DNA of 33,215 bases, from positions 1 through 33,215 of the forward strand of contig JAQBYJ010000063.1 of the NCBI GenBank assembly GCA_027622555.1, given 5' to 3'. This document shows, piece by piece, positions 6,960 through 28,444 of the stretch. Made by a program: the position numbers and the translations under genes. This DNA is from Verrucomicrobiota bacterium. Its GTDB lineage: Bacteria > Verrucomicrobiota > Verrucomicrobiia > Opitutales > UBA2995. Every line of letters begins with the position of its first letter. Positions within the stretch are counted from its first letter, which is position 1. The notes beneath the pieces were generated by a model that had not been told where the DNA came from, made no database searches, and worked only from the letters and a program-made list of their open reading frames with translations.

Positions 6960-8471
6960 TTATTTAGAAGGAAAGAATTTCTTAAGCGTGTCTGCTGATG
7001 GAACTTTGGTCGCCAGCGAAACCGCCACCAAGGTAACAGCACAGGTAGCAAACATTGCTACGACGGGCATCATTCCCCCAACCGCGTAGGCACCATTCGA
7101 GCCATAGCCCGAATTCCTGAAAAGAATAAACCAGCATACTGCCGTCGCAATAACGGCAGCATAAGCGCCTAGTTTTGTAGCTCGTTTCCAATAAATCGCT
7201 GCAAAAACTAAAGGGAATAATGAAGCGTAGCCGCTGAAACACCAAATCCCCAAGGTGAAAACCGACCGCGATTCAGCCAATGAAAAGAGAAAGGTAACCA
7301 ACACGATAAAGGAAATGAATCCGCGAGCCAACCACACCATGGCTGTATCGGAGAATCGATTCTTTCCAAACGAATGCGCAACAATGTCTCTCGTGAACAT
7401 GGTTCCCACAGACACAAATTGTGAATCGAGTGATGACATGATTGCCGCTAGCACACCAGCACTTACAAGACCGGCAATTATAGGCGTCGACAACTTGCCG
7501 ACCATGATTCCCAACACCGCATTCGGAACGGCTCCCGGCGGAATAATTGGGGTTTGCGTTCCGGGCATCAGTGCACCCGTCGCCCAGTAGCCAATCAAGA
7601 TACAGGGAATCCAGGTGACCATGATACTAAGCGGGTGAGCGATCAGCATGAACTTGAAATTCTTCGAGGACTTCGAGGTAAGGAAATTTTGGAACAGGTG
7701 GGGAAACATACCCACTGAGAGCGGAATAAACAAATAGGTAAAGAACTGCAGCTCCGAAATGTTACCCTGACGAACCGCTTTGGCGGGATTGGCCATTTCT
7801 GATGCGGCAGAAAACCCTCCCAGTTTGGATGAGATGAGAATGAAGGCGACGACTCCCATCACCATAAAGATGATCGTTTGAAAGGTATTGGCCCAGGCGG
7901 CTGATCGCACCCCCCCCATAAATATATAAGAGAGGACGACGCCACAGATAACCAGTGAAGTTAGCCAGGGCGGAACTGCACCTCCGGTTGAGGCAAACAC
8001 ATCGGGAAAAGCTCCGCGGGTTACTCCCCCGATAAATGAACCGGCACCTAGTAAACCTACCAGGAGATAGGGAATGATAAGGCCAACCAAAATGGGAAAT
8101 AACAAGTAGCCCAATCCATTACTTTCAAACCGGTCCCGGAAAAGTTCGATCTGGGTCATGTAGCCATTACGCTTACCCAGAGACCAGAGGCGTAGCCCAA
8201 TCAAAAAGAAAACCGCAGAATGGACCAAGGCTGAGGACGAGGCCATTTTACCAAAAGTAGCAACACCCAGGTGGAAAGCTTCGCCCGTACTTCCGACCAT
8301 GGCAAATGCGGTCATTGTCGTTCCAAAGACTGACATGAAAAGGACAAAGGGTCCAATAGAGCGACTGGCCACAAAGAAATCAGCCGCACCACCTCTAAAG
8401 AACTTTTTGCTAACGACCCCTAGGCCAATGAGAATGACCAAATAAATACAAATAATTACAACCTGAGTCAT
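6960..8471 (-). CDS. Sodium/solute symporter (SSS family)
   Basis: The 503-residue integral inner-membrane protein has about 13 hydrophobic segments. It opens with a transmembrane helix followed by FFVASRSIGPFVLFMSVFGTTMTAFAMVGSTG, typical of the first helices of SSS transporters (PanF/acetate-permease side of the family). A later GLVSAGVLAAIMSSLDSQFVSVGTMFTRDI matches the conserved region around helix 8. It should couple sodium entry to uptake of a small, probably acidic solute. Its ATG overlaps the stop of the DUF3311 gene by ATGA, and the ligase begins 3 nt downstream. The operon position suggests it imports the substrate of the ligase. Confidence 0.9.
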   Translation of the reverse strand: MTQVVIICIYLVILIGLGVVSKKFFRGGAADFFVASRSIGPFVLFMSVFGTTMTAFAMVGSTGEAFHLGVATFGKMASSSALVHSAVFFLIGLRLWSLGKRNGYMTQIELFRDRFESNGLGYLLFPILVGLIIPYLLVGLLGAGSFIGGVTRGAFPDVFASTGGAVPPWLTSLVICGVVLSYIFMGGVRSAAWANTFQTIIFMVMGVVAFILISSKLGGFSAASEMANPAKAVRQGNISELQFFTYLFIPLSVGMFPHLFQNFLTSKSSKNFKFMLIAHPLSIMVTWIPCILIGYWATGALMPGTQTPIIPPGAVPNAVLGIMVGKLSTPIIAGLVSAGVLAAIMSSLDSQFVSVGTMFTRDIVAHSFGKNRFSDTAMVWLARGFISFIVLVTFLFSLAESRSVFTLGIWCFSGYASLFPLVFAAIYWKRATKLGAYAAVIATAVCWFILFRNSGYGSNGAYAVGGMMPVVAMFATCAVTLVAVSLATKVPSADTLKKFFPSK

Positions 8472-14916: not shown

Positions 14917-16191
14917 ATGAGCATGAGACACACCCTAATCCTCCTTTGTTTCGCCTCAACTTCACTTTCTGCAGAGTGGACCAACTGGCGAGGGCCTAAC
15001 AACAATCTGTCAACAGATCACCAGGCTTTCCCAAACACGTTTTCCAATAACGAGAACGTAGTCTGGTCGATGGAGATCTCTGGAGAAGGCACTTCTACCC
15101 CGGCTATATGGAAGGACACACTCTATATTACCAGTATGAAGAATGGAATGGATACCCTGATTGCATTGAATCTGGACGGAATACAACAATGGGAGACCCA
15201 AATCGGAATTGGTGAGGAAGGAAGTCATAGGCAGGGAACAGGAGCAAACCCCAGTCCAGTTGTGGACGACAGTGGTATTTATGTTTATTTCAAATCTGCT
15301 TCTTTGGCTAAATTCAGCCATTCGGGGAAGGAGATCTGGAAGAAAAACCTCCAAAAAGAATACAGCATCACCAGCCAATGGTGGGATCTCGGAACGTCGC
15401 CGGTTCTCGAGGACGGAAAGATCTTTATCGCGGTTATGCAGCAGCTAGCGCGTCGGAGTGGTGAAAAAGCGGAAACCTATGTTGTGGCTCTGGACAAAGA
15501 TACCGGTAAAGAAATTTGGAAAGTAGACCGCGTTACTGGTGCCAACACGGAATCCAATGACGCCTACACAACTCCACTTATCGCTACAGTAGATGGTCAA
15601 AGACAACTTATTGTGTGGGGCGCCGACCAATTAAGTGGGCATTCCCTTAAAAACGGTGAAGCGATCTGGACCTGCGGTGACTTCAATCCGACTGACCACA
15701 AAAACTGGAGAACGATTGCCTCGCATACTATTGTGGGTGACATAGCAATCGTCCCTTACGGTAGAGGTTACGCTGTTGCCGCAATTAAGATGTCTGGGAA
15801 GGGAGATATCACCAGTAAATCAAGATTGTGGGAAATAGAAAAAATTGGACCTGATGTCCCCTCTCCAACCATTCACGGAGATTCGACCATTATTTTAAAC
15901 GACCGTGGCGTTCTCACAGCAATTGACATAGAATCGGGTGATATCCGCTGGACAAGCGAGCTACCCAGAACAGCAGCGAAGTACTTTGCATCCCCCATTA
16001 TTTCTGGAAACCGTCTGATTTGTAGTCGAGATGACGGCACAGTGTTTGTTTGTGAACTGAATAAGGATGGCGTTGAAGTTCTTTCAGAAAACAACATGGG
16101 GGAAGCCGTTATTGCGACTCCTGTTCCCTACGGAGACAAGCTATACGTCCGCACGGCAAGCACCCTTTACTGTATCGGCAAGTCCAGCTAG
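14917..16191 (+). CDS. Exported PQQ-like beta-propeller protein (424 aa)
   Basis: A short signal peptide (to about residue 19, LSA) precedes EWTNWRGPNNNLS, the same N-terminal signature as the 754-aa propeller on the other strand. Blade motifs include SHSGKEIWKKNL, DKDTGKEIWKVDR, SLKNGEAIWTCGD and DIESGDIRWTSEL. It is probably a single seven- or eight-bladed periplasmic PQQ_2-type propeller. Two ATG codons lie close together (14917 and 14923). It is divergent from the TonB receptor and is followed after 31 nt by a DUF1080 lipoprotein gene. The function is unknown. Homologues in PVC bacteria are usually annotated as outer membrane assembly-like or quinoprotein-like. Confidence 0.85.
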   Translation: MSMRHTLILLCFASTSLSAEWTNWRGPNNNLSTDHQAFPNTFSNNENVVWSMEISGEGTSTPAIWKDTLYITSMKNGMDTLIALNLDGIQQWETQIGIGEEGSHRQGTGANPSPVVDDSGIYVYFKSASLAKFSHSGKEIWKKNLQKEYSITSQWWDLGTSPVLEDGKIFIAVMQQLARRSGEKAETYVVALDKDTGKEIWKVDRVTGANTESNDAYTTPLIATVDGQRQLIVWGADQLSGHSLKNGEAIWTCGDFNPTDHKNWRTIASHTIVGDIAIVPYGRGYAVAAIKMSGKGDITSKSRLWEIEKIGPDVPSPTIHGDSTIILNDRGVLTAIDIESGDIRWTSELPRTAAKYFASPIISGNRLICSRDDGTVFVCELNKDGVEVLSENNMGEAVIATPVPYGDKLYVRTASTLYCIGKSS

Positions 16192-16222
16192 GATACTTTA
16201 TCAATCTTCTAATCACGCAATT

Positions 16223-17038
16223 ATGACAAATTACCTCCCTAAGCTTTCCATACTTTCCATTGTAGCTAGCATTGCCTTAATTGGATGCTCGGCACCCAAA
16301 GAAGGATCAGAAAACCACAATACTTCACCAGAGTCTTACATCGGCGTTGGAGCAGTTCCTCTTGTGGGCGCGGAGGTGCTTCTCGATGGAACACGCGAGT
16401 CACTCACTGCCAATTGGGAATACTGGGAAGGCCCTCGCTTTAATTCTGAAATGCCCATCAAGTGGCTGGACTCCGAAGATCCTGTTGATGGTGGTCCGGC
16501 AATTAGTGCCAAAGACCCGGCTGCTGCAGGAGGTAAGTATGGAAGCGCCGATATCGTTACCAAAAAAAAGTATGGAGACAAACGGGTACATGTTGAGTTT
16601 CTCATCACCGGCGAAGGAGGCAACAGCGGTGTGTACCTTCAAAACCGGTACGAGATTCAAGTCCTGGATGGTGACAAAACGAAACATGGCATGGGTGCTG
16701 TGATCAACGAAACGGAGTCGCCTTACCACGCTTATAACGGAATCGGCAAATGGAACGCCTATGACATCCAATTCCGTGCCGCCCGCTTCAAGGATGGTAA
16801 GCTAAGCGAGAAGCCAATTGTAAGTGTATATTTCAACGGACAAAAAGTGCACACGAATGTGACGATCAATAAAGTCTGGGGGGGTGCCAACTCCGGTCTT
16901 GATGGAGGTAACGACAATGGTTTCGGAATTACCGATCGACCTGGAGGACTTAAGCTACAAGCTGAAGGTTGGGATGTCCGTTACCGCAGCGTCTGGATCA
17001 AGGAAATGAATTTCGAGGAACCCGATACGGACTTTTAA
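16223..17038 (+). CDS. DUF1080 (3-keto-disaccharide hydrolase-like) lipoprotein
   Basis: Starting at the ATG at 16223 gives 271 residues with a signal segment and lipobox LIGC (C22). The frame is open further upstream into the previous gene, but that part lacks an export signal at its end. The body matches DUF1080: GGKYGSADIVTKKKYGDKRVHVEFLI, then EGGNSGVYLQNRYEIQVLD, NAYDIQFRAARF and a final RSVWIKEM strand. This is a concanavalin-like jelly roll. Members include 3-keto-disaccharide hydrolases, and others are thought to bind or cut sugars. It lies downstream of a PQQ-like propeller and is probably co-transcribed with it. The following gene is convergent, 20 nt away. Confidence 0.88.
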   Translation: MTNYLPKLSILSIVASIALIGCSAPKEGSENHNTSPESYIGVGAVPLVGAEVLLDGTRESLTANWEYWEGPRFNSEMPIKWLDSEDPVDGGPAISAKDPAAAGGKYGSADIVTKKKYGDKRVHVEFLITGEGGNSGVYLQNRYEIQVLDGDKTKHGMGAVINETESPYHAYNGIGKWNAYDIQFRAARFKDGKLSEKPIVSVYFNGQKVHTNVTINKVWGGANSGLDGGNDNGFGITDRPGGLKLQAEGWDVRYRSVWIKEMNFEEPDTDF

Positions 17039-18457: not shown

Positions 18458-20146
18458 ATGGGCACCATACTCTCTTTTTTCTTTTTCACAGGACTTGTCG
18501 GTTTCATAACCTACCTCCGAACTCACAACGATAACCTGAAAACCTCAAAAGGTTATTTTTTAGCAGGAAACAGTCTGAACGGCTGGGTAATTGCAGGTTC
18601 ATTGATGCTGACCAATTTGAGCGCAGCCAACTTTACGGGGATGACCGCCAACGTTTACGCAGGCAATCTGTCGCCGATTGCATGGACGGTTACGGTGATT
18701 CCTCCGTTGATATATTTCAGCGCCGTTTTATTACCCACTTTTCTGAGAGGAGGATTTACAACCATTCCCGAATTTCTGGAAAACCGATTCCATAAGTCGA
18801 CCCGCAGAACGGTCGCGGTGATGTTTTTGTTTTCCTACATCGTAAGCGCGATGCCGGTCGCACTTTACGGCGGATCAATCGCGATCAACTTACTTTTTAA
18901 TATTTCCGCCGGATTGGATATCAGCAACCAGGCCGTCATCTGGATTCTGGTTTGGTCATTGGGAATCATTGGAAGCCTCTACGCCCTGTTTGGCGGACTC
19001 AAAGGAGTAGCGATCTCCGATACCCTCAACGGCATCGGATTACTCATAGGTGGCGCCATGGTGTTCATTATCGGCATCTACAAAGTAGGCGAAAACAACT
19101 TCATCCAGGGATTCCAAACCATCCTCACAAAAAACACCCAGATTCTGGATGCGGTCGGCGATGTTACTGACGGCATACCTTTCTCAGTGCTCTTCACCGG
19201 CATGCTCATTCACAATCTATTCTTCTGGAGCACCAATCAGTTTATTGTTCAAAGAACCCTCGGTGCCCGTAGCTTGAAGGAAGGGCAAAAGGGCGTGATG
19301 ATCGCCTCGTTCTTCAAGATCCTGAACATTTGCTACATCGCCTTCCCCGGAGTCATCGCCTTCCACTTGTTTGGTCCAAATCATTTTGAGAACAACGACT
19401 TCGCCTACCCTTCCCTCATACGCGAAATCATGCCCGAAGTTTTCATCGGTTTTTTTGCAGCGGTCATTTTTGGTGCGGTCCTGAGCACGTTTAATTCGGT
19501 GTTGAATAGTTCGGTCACTATTTTCGCGTTGGACGTCTACAAACCTCTCTTTGGGAAAAACCTGGATGATCGAACCATCATTCAAAGAAGCAAGAAGTTT
19601 GGTATCCTGATGGCGGTAGCCACGATGATCATAGCGCCGTTTATCATGTATTTTCCCGAAGGCATTTTTACCTTCATGGTGAAGGTCGATAGTTTGTTTG
19701 GCGCACCCATCTTCATGGTGATGTTGCTGGGCTATTTTTCAAACCGGGTATCCCACAAGGTAGCCAATTTCTGCCTGACCCTTTTTCTGATCGTCTACGG
19801 TACCCTGTTATTATTCGTAAAGCCGGACCTCCATTACCTTCACTACATGGCTATTCTCTTTACCGCTTTCACCGGCCTGGCGTTTCTGCTTGGTAAAATT
19901 TTTCCGGTCAACAAACCGCCCATCGATACAAGCGGCATTGACGGTGTCGATATAACCCCCTGGAAATACTTTAAGCCTATATCGATCCTAGCGACGATTG
20001 CTATGGTGACGGTGTACATTCTTCTCTCCCCGGTAGGGTTAGTGGAACCAGGCCGTGAAAAAACAATAGAGTACGGAATAATAGCTGCGGGCCTCGTTAT
20101 GGCTTTTGTGCTTTTTGGAGTGCCTTTGATCAGAAAGAAGACCTGA
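18458..20146 (+). CDS. Sodium/sugar symporter (SSS family, SGLT-like)
   Basis: The 562-residue inner-membrane protein has about 14 transmembrane segments. Hallmarks are GYFLAGNSLNGWVIAGSLMLTNLSAANFTGM near the start, GGLKGVAISDTLNG in the middle, FFWSTNQFIVQRTLGARSLKEGQKG and FGAVLSTFNSVLNSSVTIFALDVYK. These patterns are typical of SGLT-type sugar/sodium symporters widespread in marine Bacteroidota and Verrucomicrobiota. It should bring a mono- or disaccharide into the cytoplasm. Downstream genes (sulfatase, DUF1080 fusion) support a sugar-catabolic context. It ends TGA, directly followed by GTG of the next reading frame. Confidence 0.92.
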   Translation: MGTILSFFFFTGLVGFITYLRTHNDNLKTSKGYFLAGNSLNGWVIAGSLMLTNLSAANFTGMTANVYAGNLSPIAWTVTVIPPLIYFSAVLLPTFLRGGFTTIPEFLENRFHKSTRRTVAVMFLFSYIVSAMPVALYGGSIAINLLFNISAGLDISNQAVIWILVWSLGIIGSLYALFGGLKGVAISDTLNGIGLLIGGAMVFIIGIYKVGENNFIQGFQTILTKNTQILDAVGDVTDGIPFSVLFTGMLIHNLFFWSTNQFIVQRTLGARSLKEGQKGVMIASFFKILNICYIAFPGVIAFHLFGPNHFENNDFAYPSLIREIMPEVFIGFFAAVIFGAVLSTFNSVLNSSVTIFALDVYKPLFGKNLDDRTIIQRSKKFGILMAVATMIIAPFIMYFPEGIFTFMVKVDSLFGAPIFMVMLLGYFSNRVSHKVANFCLTLFLIVYGTLLLFVKPDLHYLHYMAILFTAFTGLAFLLGKIFPVNKPPIDTSGIDGVDITPWKYFKPISILATIAMVTVYILLSPVGLVEPGREKTIEYGIIAAGLVMAFVLFGVPLIRKKT

Positions 20147-24522: not shown

Positions 24523-24642
24523 TGTAGGAGCAAACTTGTTCGCGACCACTATGATAAAGAAATTCATTACCTCCCCTAAAAATCAGGGCGTTCCATCCGC
24601 CCTTCAAGAGCTATGGAGGACTAAAGAAAGCCCCCTCCTACA
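24523..24642. repeat. REP-type repeat overlapping the sulfatase start
   Basis: TGTAGGAGCAAACTTGTTCG begins at 24523 and continues to about 24547; it matches the REP core seen at 3176 and 26087. CTCCTACA at 24635-24642 is the inverted form of the repeat's first eight bases, so the whole 120-nt segment has inverted ends. It spans the translation start and the first part of the sulfatase reading frame. Confidence 0.65.
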
Positions 24643-26083
24643 GTTCTCTCCGTTCTGCTTTTTATTTTTCATCCTTCTGAATTTTGCCTTCAACCTTCAG
24701 GCAGCACAGCTTCCCAACATCGTTCTCCTGGTCGCCGACGATCTCGGTTACGGCGAGCTGGGTTGTCAGGGCAATCCGGAGATTCCAACACCCCATATTG
24801 ATTCGCTGGCCGAACAAGGTGTTCGATTCACACAGGGTTACGTAACTGCCCCGTTTTGCAGTGCCTCCCGCGCGGGCCTGATGACTGGGCGCTATCAAAC
24901 ACGTTTTGGCTATGAGTTTAATCCGATCGGAGCGAAGAATGAAGAACCCGACGCAGGGCTTCCGCTTAGTGAAATGACAATCGCAGACGTGTTAGTCGAC
25001 GCCGGTTATGTAACCGGTATGTTCGGAAAGTGGCACCTCGGTGGTTCCGCCAAATACAACCCTATTCGACGCGGCTTTGATGAGTTCTTTGGGTTCCTTC
25101 ACGAAGGTCATTACTTCGTTCCACAGCCCTACACGGATAGTACGACCACCTGGTTGCGCCGCAAAGTGCTTCCTGGCGGAGGTGAAGGCCGTTGGATTTC
25201 CCAGGACGAAAAATTAATTTACTCCACTCACATGGGTGGAACTGAACCGGATTACGATGCGGACAATCCCATCTATCGTGACGGCCAACCAGTTGAGGAA
25301 GAAGAATACCTGACAGATGCATTCACACGTGAGGCCGTTTCATTCATAGGCCGTCATGCGGATAAACCCTTTTTCCTGTATGTACCCTATAATGCGGTCC
25401 ACAGCCCACTACAAGGTGCCGACCCTTATATGAAAAAGTTTGAGCACATTGAGGATATTCAACGCCGCATCTTCGCCGCAATGCTTTCCAATCTGGATGA
25501 CAGCGTGGGAGCCATCCTTGCCAAGCTCCGCGAGAAAGGCATGGAAGAAAATACGCTCATATTTTTCATCAGCGACAACGGTGGCCCCACTCGCGAACTC
25601 ACTTCCAGTAATCTGCCCCTGCGCGAAGGAAAAGGAAGCGTGTACGAAGGGGGAAATCGGGTTCCCTTTATGGCAAAATGGCCAAGTCAAATTCCTGCCG
25701 GGGCTGTTTACGAGCATCCTGTGATCTCACTCGATATCTTTGCCACGGCAGCGGCAATCGCCAATGCCCAATTGGACAAACGGAAAATCATCGACGGGGT
25801 GAATCTCATCCCCTACCTCACCGGCGAAAATAAAAGCCGTCCTCACGATACACTCTTCTGGAGAATCGAGAAACGGACCGCCATCCGAGTCGGCGATTGG
25901 AAACTGCTACGCAATCCTGGCCGCGGCCAAGGGGACGATTGGGAACTCTACAATCTTGCCACCGACATCAGCGAATCCAACAATCTGGCATCCTCCAATC
26001 CCAGCAAATTAAAGGAAATGATCAAAGCCTGGGAATCCGTGAATGGTGAAATGATCGATCCCGTTTGGAGTCCGCGGGGGTAA
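24551..26083 (+). CDS. Type I (formylglycine) sulfatase, exported
   Basis: The alkaline-phosphatase-fold sulfatase is shown by VLLVADDLGYGELGCQGN (calcium-binding aspartates), the CSASR motif whose cysteine (residue 103 from this start) is converted to formylglycine, GRYQTRFGYEFNP, GKWHLGG and FFISDNGGPTRE. It hydrolyses sulfate esters, probably on a polysaccharide or sugar imported by the cluster, in the periplasm. ATG 24551 is the first good start; the frame opens at a TTG at 24536 inside a REP element. A signal-anchor-like stretch (FCFLFFILLNFAFNLQA) comes only after about 30 residues, so the leader is unusually long and probably REP-derived. CSASR implies an anaerobic/aerobic sulfatase-maturating enzyme elsewhere in the genome. 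Confidence 0.92.
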   Translation: MIKKFITSPKNQGVPSALQELWRTKESPLLQFSPFCFLFFILLNFAFNLQAAQLPNIVLLVADDLGYGELGCQGNPEIPTPHIDSLAEQGVRFTQGYVTAPFCSASRAGLMTGRYQTRFGYEFNPIGAKNEEPDAGLPLSEMTIADVLVDAGYVTGMFGKWHLGGSAKYNPIRRGFDEFFGFLHEGHYFVPQPYTDSTTTWLRRKVLPGGGEGRWISQDEKLIYSTHMGGTEPDYDADNPIYRDGQPVEEEEYLTDAFTREAVSFIGRHADKPFFLYVPYNAVHSPLQGADPYMKKFEHIEDIQRRIFAAMLSNLDDSVGAILAKLREKGMEENTLIFFISDNGGPTRELTSSNLPLREGKGSVYEGGNRVPFMAKWPSQIPAGAVYEHPVISLDIFATAAAIANAQLDKRKIIDGVNLIPYLTGENKSRPHDTLFWRIEKRTAIRVGDWKLLRNPGRGQGDDWELYNLATDISESNNLASSNPSKLKEMIKAWESVNGEMIDPVWSPRG

Positions 26084-26175: not shown

Positions 26176-27243
26176 ATGAACAAGTTGAAGCAACCAATCC
26201 TCTTATTTCCATTCCTTTTGTTCATCAGCCTAAGCTGTGGCTGCTCTGATAAAGCTTCAAAGATTCCGGTAAAGGTTGTTGTGCTGACCATGTTCGAGCA
26301 TGAAGGAGAGCGCCCCGGTGAACGACAATTGTGGGAAGAGCGACTGAAACTTAACACACGCCTTCCCTTTCCCGCTGGACAATCGGATATTTATACCAAT
26401 GGACAAGGTTTGATTCTCATTACAACCAACATGGGTGTGTCAAACGCTGCTGCCTCGGTTATGGCATTGGGACTGGATCCCCGATTCGATTTTAGTAAGG
26501 CTTACTGGCTCGTCGCTGGCATTTCTGGTATCGATCCGAACGACGGCTCCATGGGGAGCGCAGTCTGGACGGACTACGTAGTCGATGGTGGCCTGGCTCA
26601 CGAAATTGATGCACGCGAGATTCCTGATGATTGGAAAACCGGTTATACGCCGCTACGATCACCCCGACCTTACGACCGTAATGGAGAACCAGTGAATCCA
26701 AGTCAGTTTTTCAAGCTCAACCATGCTCTGCTTCAATGATCATATGGGTTAACGAAGGATGTCCAGTTGCTCGATCGACCGGAGCTTGTCCAACGTAGGG
26801 CTGAGTATGTGGGCTACCCCAATGCGCAAAAGAAACCTTTTGTATTAATCGGCAGCCATATAAGTGATTCCACTTTCTGGCACGGCGAAAAGATGACCGA
26901 GTTCGGAAACGACTGGGTCGAATTCTGGACTGAAGGTCAGGGCAACTTTACTACGAAAGCGATGGAGGACAGCGGGACTTTACAGTCACTGAAGAACCTG
27001 GATAACGCAGGTATGGTCGACTATGACCGAGTGATGATCCTCCGCACGGCAGCCAACTACACCATGCCCTCTCCAGGCATGACGGCAGCCGAGAGTCTGG
27101 CTCGAGAACGTGGAGCTTCGCTTTCAGCTTTCAATGAATCGTTGGAGGCAGCCTTTCGGGTGGGCAATACAGTGGTGCAGGAGCTTCTTACAAATTGGGA
27201 AATCTACGAGGACAAGATTCCTGTGCAGAGACCGAGAGACTGA
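26176..27243 (+). pseudogene. Purine nucleoside permease-like protein (NUP family), interrupted by in-frame TGA
   Basis: One continuous frame from ATG 26176 to TGA 27241-27243 encodes a 355-residue NUP-type protein broken by a single in-frame TGA at 26737-26739 (codon 188). The upstream part has a signal peptide with cysteines C21/C23 and the family motifs VVVLTMFEHEGERPGE and GLILITTNMGVSNAAASVMALG...YWLVAGISGIDP. The downstream part continues SYGLTKDVQL...VLIGSHISDSTFWHGEKMTEF...RTAANYTMP. The family normally has Trp before SYGLT, so TGG to TGA is the simplest change. NUP proteins were described as yeast nucleoside permeases, but the fold resembles nucleoside phosphorylases. Gene decay, a sequencing error or read-through are all possible. 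Confidence 0.85.
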
Positions 27244-27259
27244 TGTTGATTTCAAAAAC

Positions 27260-27287
27260 GTAGCCATGGCCGTGAGACCATGGCTAC
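27260..27287 (-). terminator. Rho-independent terminator of the beta-lactamase-like operon
   Basis: A perfect 10-bp stem, GTAGCCATGG and CCATGGCTAC, encloses an 8-nt loop. Read on the minus strand it is followed by GTTTTTG, a short U-tract. It lies 27 nt past the beta-lactamase stop and between convergent genes; the plus-strand side lacks a U-tract. Confidence 0.75.
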
Positions 27288-27313
27288 AAATCTCTACCTC
27301 ATTCTGGAGTAGG

Positions 27314-28444
27314 TCACGGAGCAATCACTGGTCCGAATGCCTGGCTCAATGCCTGACCTACTTCTATTGACTGACCTGGATCAGAAACGGTGTAAAGAAT
27401 CGCCAGATAAATACCAGACTCCAGATTGATCTGGAACAAGGCACGACTTGAAGCCAAGGCTCCGGAATGCCCAAGGCCGAATACATTTCCATTCGCCTTC
27501 AATTGATTCCAGCCAAATGCATAGCCACTCTTTTCACTATAGGGAGTCGTGTAGGACTCAAACTGTTTAGAGCTCATCAGAACTTCATCGCCCTTGGTCG
27601 CCTGCTTCAAAACGGCTTGAAGAAAGACTGCACTATCTGCAGCTGTGGAATACAAACTGCCGCCAATCAAAGGCAGATTAAATGGCTCAGACAAATGAGG
27701 AGTGGATTTACTTATACTTCCGTTCACTGAACCAGAGGCTACGTTCTTGTTCGAGCTCGATGGAAAATACGAAGTGTGAGTCCACTCGAGTGGTTCGCAC
27801 ATACGCGATTGTAACAGTGCTTCGAAGGATTTTTCCGTGGCAACTTCAGCAACACGACCCAACACACAATAGCCAGCACCGCTGTAAGCGTATTCGTCGC
27901 CTGGCTTTGCATATAAAGGTTCCTTGGCAATACCGTCTACTGCTTCCCCAAGGTTCAATGTAAAATCACGAATCCATTTAGACTGCCGCTTAGTCATTCT
28001 CTTTTTTTGAGAGTAGATGCCGCCATGGTGACTCAGTAGTTCAGCCAGGGTTGGCACCCGGGCAGTTTTTCCGTTGGTCGTCTTAAGGGAACCAAATGCC
28101 GAAAGCCAGCCATCGATCCCTTTATCCAAAACCAGAGTACCGTCATCAACCAGGGTCATCACCACCGCGGATGCGATTGGCTTGGAACAAGAGCCGATAC
28201 AAAACATTGTTTCAGAATCAACCGGCGTATCGTCGTCAATTGAACGAACTCCAAAGTTCTCATTCAGCAAAGAACGGTCGCCTTGACCCATGGCCAATTG
28301 AGCACCGACCAGCTTTCCCAAATCGACCAAGGATTGAACTGCCTCCTTTACTTTGTTTAATTGATCCTGTGAAGGAGCCGAGTAAGCGCCAACACAAACG
28401 AATAGGAAAGAAGCTATCAGGAAAAGGTAGAACTTCTTATGCAT
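27314..28444 (-). CDS. Serine beta-lactamase-like hydrolase (class C/esterase family), exported
   Basis: The 376-residue protein has a signal peptide ending near AYSA. The nucleophile motif SxxK is S85-CS-K88 (IGSCSKPIAS), the second motif is Y187-S-G (family normally Y-x-N) and the third is H326-S-G (GLGHSGAL), so it fits PF00144 beta-lactamase-related esterases and D-Ala-D-Ala peptidases. Such proteins are usually esterases in PVC genomes; beta-lactam resistance should not be assumed. The gene begins 18 nt after the stop of the dehydrogenase/cytochrome gene, and a terminator follows it, making it last in a three-gene operon. Confidence 0.88.
   Translation of the reverse strand: MHKKFYLFLIASFLFVCVGAYSAPSQDQLNKVKEAVQSLVDLGKLVGAQLAMGQGDRSLLNENFGVRSIDDDTPVDSETMFCIGSCSKPIASAVVMTLVDDGTLVLDKGIDGWLSAFGSLKTTNGKTARVPTLAELLSHHGGIYSQKKRMTKRQSKWIRDFTLNLGEAVDGIAKEPLYAKPGDEYAYSGAGYCVLGRVAEVATEKSFEALLQSRMCEPLEWTHTSYFPSSSNKNVASGSVNGSISKSTPHLSEPFNLPLIGGSLYSTAADSAVFLQAVLKQATKGDEVLMSSKQFESYTTPYSEKSGYAFGWNQLKANGNVFGLGHSGALASSRALFQINLESGIYLAILYTVSDPGQSIEVGQALSQAFGPVIAP

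Follow-up and report, generated by a model that had tools for sequence, protein, structure and literature searches.

Proteins of the NUP family (PF06516) are annotated as 'purine nucleoside permease'. PMC9431476 terms NUP a characterised transporter too, and describes a Candida NUP that conferred no sensitivity to toyocamycin when expressed in yeast. The NUP profile has already been assigned in print to the PUP superfamily (PMC9815663). This superfamily includes the MTA/SAH nucleosidases and the purine and uridine phosphorylases. Bacterial nonsense pseudogenes carry one internal stop in a conserved frame and have intact orthologues elsewhere. False internal stops are known to arise from errors in assembly (PMC11017572), although MAGs lie outside the assessment of that paper. 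Internal UGA codons can also be read by tRNA-Trp(CCA). In E. coli, C27A, which unpins the 27-43 pair of the tRNA, raised UGA read-through ~2.5-fold on overexpression (PMC13092985).

The window analysed here is a 33,215-nucleotide stretch of DNA that makes up the whole of contig C63 of G000, an Opitutales-related genome of 6.0 Mb in 238 contigs that is 95.8% complete. It contains a NUP gene interrupted by a TGA codon. The features at and around this gene are as follows.

24536-26083, plus strand: upstream sulfatase gene, intact and syntenic in the congener G002 (PF00884, E 1e-61; 87% identity to L043)
26176-26739, plus strand: 5' portion of the interrupted NUP gene, 187 aa and the premature TGA (PF06516, E 7.9e-49, profile positions 2-153)
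26737-26739, plus strand: premature in-frame TGA at the Trp position of the family (from orthologues and aligned rows)
26740-26742, plus strand: Ser codon adjoining the stop, Ala in the family (Ala in 121 of 124 rows)
26740-27243, plus strand: 3' half of the NUP gene, 167 aa and the regular terminal TGA (PF06516, E 3e-48, profile positions 157-312)
27259-27288, minus strand: terminator-like hairpin of 13 pairs between the convergent genes (from sequence)
27314-28444, minus strand: downstream, convergent Beta-lactamase family gene (PF00144), intact and syntenic in G002 (from profile match and synteny)

Translation of 26176-27243 gives 187 aa, a TGA at 26737-26739, a further 167 aa in the same frame and a final TGA at 27241-27243. 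The initial annotation had described a TGA that splits one gene into halves sharing a frame, and this holds, with the starts at 26176 and 26767 lying 591 nt apart, a number divisible by three. The window gene resembles the family in matching its profile in consecutive parts and differs from it in that the single uninterrupted frame of NUP PF06516 is broken by the TGA. The two halves score 167 and 165 bits against a curated cut-off of 27 and match adjoining stretches of the one profile (length 313); thus, they were formerly one gene beyond reasonable doubt. The 5' half carries a lipoprotein-like signal peptide, as judged by eye, and the N-terminal half of the nucleosidase fold. Promoter-like sites around the gene are no more numerous than expected by chance.

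A structure model of the window protein, translated across the stop under code 4 and made with 22 relatives, has a mean pLDDT of 83.2. It is closest to the periplasmic MTAN 5b7q from Aeromonas hydrophila, with a Z of 23.6 over 236 aligned residues at 2.9 A, and Foldseek returned the MTAN 6ayq (E 4.6e-11); by sequence, no solved structure matched at E up to 1. By its fold, the model belongs with the PUP superfamily (MTAN/PNP fold) and is like its nucleosidases and phosphorylases, though identity to 5b7q is 12%, so that the likeness comes from the predicted fold and the activity is putative. The 'permease' label fits poorly with a predicted soluble fold, and proteins annotated in this way are probably exported nucleosidase-like enzymes. 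Of the family name given at first, the assignment to NUP (PF06516) is retained, whereas 'purine nucleoside permease' is a probable misnomer for what is predicted to be a secreted nucleosidase-fold protein. Residue 188 falls within model helix 183-193, and the truncated product would lose everything after it, from helix 202-208 onward. The lost half holds the invariant residues M263-E264 and N294, which may be active-site positions in this superfamily. Since the stop strips the C-terminal half of the fold, the 187-residue truncated protein is very probably inactive.

Comparison with relatives bears out the earlier claim that the TGA stands where the family has Trp. Of the 124 aligned rows, 117 carry Trp in the stop's column, and the rest are R (2), A (2), K (1), a gap (1) and the window itself (1). 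Trp also occupies this position in 86 of 86 spanning pieces, from at least 80 loci listed from genome records. The three nearest orthologues all have TGG and no stop: L006 (82% identical, syntenic), L007 (77%) and L019 (70%). The 3' half alone is 85% identical to the orthologue of G002. Among 134 tblastn pieces at 122 loci, some of which overlap, no stop within the gene was found besides that of the window, and no homologue conserves the TGA. Stops at positions 4, 13 and 352 of the query, in three other tblastn pieces, belong to 5' extensions or to the 3' end. Internal stops that had been flagged in the NUP genes of G003, G036 and G116 were rejected, being terminal stops. When the C-terminal half was used by itself as query, the genome scan found no relative. 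Intact relatives of NUP PF06516 occur in Opitutales and in other phyla.

L006 comes from G002, whose genome is a single contig, and is flanked by the same neighbours as the window gene. Identity between G002 and the window is 73% for the hydrolase/cytochrome c gene, 87% for the sulfatase, 67% for the beta-lactamase family gene, 69% for the HEAT/DUF7133 protein and 66% for the GDSL gene. The window gene thus has a premature stop where its syntenic counterpart (L006, with its neighbours in L043) is intact. It is like the bacterial nonsense pseudogenes in having one internal stop, a conserved frame and intact orthologues elsewhere, and shows no difference from them, provided that the stop is a real mutation and not an error. 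The split sequence is most likely an ordinary nonsense pseudogene. We consider it probable that a recent mutation in the lineage turned a normal, conserved, exported gene of the nucleosidase fold (NUP) into a nonsense allele.

A different arrangement would be a split gene whose halves are two separately translated subunits, with re-initiation after the stop. An in-frame TTG at 26767 with a GAAGGA-like stretch upstream could serve such a start, but there is no in-frame ATG near the stop, the GAAGGA-like stretch encodes the conserved K-D of TKD, and none of the homologues in the 134 tblastn pieces is split at this site. We give this arrangement hardly any credence.

Reassignment of TGA to Trp or selenocysteine in this organism is equally hard to credit. 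The family residue at the stop is Trp, and in a sulfatase on contig C99 a second TGA takes the place of the Trp in the GKWH motif. Against this, TGA terminates 5 of 23 selected ORFs of the window (two of these being the halves of the NUP gene), and three genes of the RF-1 family are present in G000. The one tRNA-Trp found among 37 tRNA matches in G000 has the anticodon CCA; the anticodon UCA is absent from all 37 in this 95.8% complete genome. UGA-to-Trp recoding was ruled out on the TGA terminators, the single CCA tRNA-Trp and the missing UCA anticodon. Selenocysteine recoding was likewise ruled out, with no tRNA-Sec match over the cut-off in G000 and the best two matches being tRNA-Ser genes. 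The initial annotation had regarded recoding as unlikely from TGA stops elsewhere in the window, and its examples are sound: the symporter has its TGA terminator at 20144-20146, and the ATGA overlap is present at 8468-8471 on the minus strand. TGA ends other window ORFs, and the tRNA complement agrees with that judgement. Recoding and split subunits, even taken jointly, have only a very small chance of explaining the locus.

Read-through of the UGA, low-level or programmed and inserting Trp or another amino acid, might instead keep the gene live. Both halves are constrained, and the locus recalls the system of PMC13092985 in having a TGA at a Trp position and a tRNA-Trp(CCA) whose top anticodon-stem pair is a wobble. 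Across the genus, this tRNA-Trp shows 97-100% identity. The top pair of its anticodon stem is a G27-U43 wobble in all six genus genomes (L190-L195), that is, in the sole tRNA-Trp(CCA) of G000 and in five congeners, and G27-C43 in the outgroup G009. The ~2.5-fold effect of C27A on overexpression in E. coli speaks for this reading. However, the 4-bp anticodon stem of that system has an unpaired 27-43 position, whereas here G27-U43 is a pair, weakened but unbroken, and A9 and G24 are normal, with neither A9C nor G24A. Since G-U counts as a pair, the tRNA-Trp is classed as having a 5-bp stem by the paired-length criterion of PMC13092985. The locus further differs from that system in its standard code and in the occurrence of all three kinds of stop. 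RNA structure downstream of the stop is nothing beyond shuffled sequences (z -0.08), the congener orthologues keep TGG despite having nearly the same tRNA, and other kinds of stop are equally common in the genus. Read-through is thus an improbable account. A more specific and speculative version, in which the weakened G27-U43 pair in the sole tRNA-Trp of the genus raises natural misreading of UGA as Trp and TGA at Trp codons is partly tolerated under the standard code, is more doubtful still. If true, such misreading would let the window NUP gene and the C99 sulfatase make some full-length protein. A full-length product, if found, would make the locus more important, given the top-pair wobble of the genus tRNA-Trp.

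The age of the break can be judged from constraint on the two halves. Against G002, dN is 0.109 before the stop and 0.115 after it, with dS saturated. When amino-acid changes are polarised by G004, the window branch has 15 and the G002 branch 21, with 8 on each in the 3' half. The even dN, together with no excess of changes on the window branch, suggests that the break is young. Changes in the 3' half are not raised, which points to selection on the second half over almost the whole period since the two lineages separated. The equal constraint would follow from a recent break, from an error or from a leaky gene. As a caveat to the nonsense allele, constraint on both halves is equally expected of a live or leaky gene. 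The window alters 4 of 31 near-invariant columns, two of which are shared with its clade. Its lineage-specific changes show a mild clustering at the stop, with 4 of them within 8 codons (p 0.037 by permutation, in a test chosen post hoc). The neighbouring Ala codon is also altered, so the change is more than a lone base. In the sequence, the Ala-to-Ser neighbour and the mild clustering are hints of a genuine mutation at this place or of slightly relaxed constraint after it.

The stop could also be a consensus error of the assembly, due to low coverage or mixed strains, with the gene intact in the organism. We rate this as possible but less likely than a real mutation. G000 is fragmented into its 238 contigs, both NUP halves are conserved, and pseudogene counts shift with assembler, platform and coverage (PMC11017572). 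On the other hand, one miscalled base would not alter two adjacent near-invariant residues, and single-stop genes are no commoner in G000 than in the one-contig G002 among the matches listed. This tally covered four families and left out frameshifted genes; GFO_IDH_MocA was counted in G000 and not in G002, and the sulfatases scored were the best 150 of 335 candidates in G000 and the best 150 of 312 in G002. Among the matches listed, single internal stops in G000 occur in 2 of 151 sulfatase, 0 of 69 GFO_IDH_MocA, 1 of 47 3-keto-disaccharide hydrolase and 1 of 4 NUP genes (4 of 271 in all). In G002, the matches listed have them in 4 of 150 sulfatases (one TGA, three TAA), 0 of 43 hydrolases and 0 of 3 NUP genes (4 of 196 in all). 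That the single-contig genome has at least as many single-stop genes among the matches listed favours real mutation over error. All seven of the flagged sulfatase and hydrolase stops sit within otherwise open domains. In G000, the stops are a TGA in the sulfatase on C99, a TAG in a sulfatase on C11 and a TAA in a hydrolase on C67. With single stops of all three kinds present, codon-specific recoding is not needed.

The initial annotation had left three options side by side: a point mutation, a sequencing error and low-level read-through. Of these, a real point mutation is the best fit, followed by an error in sequencing or assembly and then by meaningful read-through. Under the nonsense allele, an intact, conserved, exported NUP gene would have been the starting state, and a recent mutation in the lineage would have put TGA at the family's Trp codon. 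Translation would then halt after 187 residues, leaving a presumably inactive fragment whose fold is missing its C-terminal half; the loss would be recent. G000 has four NUP genes: the window gene, two intact genes on C139 and C3 (47% and 41% identical) and a frameshifted one on C82. The two intact paralogues, although distant, may lessen the effect of the loss. When an environmental assembly shows a stop in place of a Trp, no recoding need be invoked: here the orthologues, the tRNA set and the general level of broken paralogues account for it.

Several other genes were observed along the way. The second broken NUP gene, L004 (G000:C82, 1441-2558), has its frameshift near AAAAAGGCCCC, close to an A5 run. 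Sulfatases are very numerous, with at least 150 matches each in G000 (335 candidates) and G002 (312 candidates). The sulfatases L182 (G000:C99:270-1598) and L184 (G002:C1:2150181-2151503) are apparently orthologous, being 66% identical where the next nearest is 53%. In these two species, the stop of L182 is the TGA at the GKWH Trp and that of L184 is a TAA elsewhere. The G005 copy of this sulfatase, L183, is cut at a contig end and is without a stop. From their sequences, the differing stops may reflect parallel loss or a gene that has been switched off repeatedly. L201 (G000:C84:19638-20250), a gene of the 3-keto-disaccharide hydrolase family, has a frameshift near GCGCGCGAAGG that splits it. 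In the window, a beta-propeller (PQQ) gene at 14917-16191 overlaps a 3-keto-disaccharide hydrolase family gene at 16067-17038 by 125 bases in different frames.
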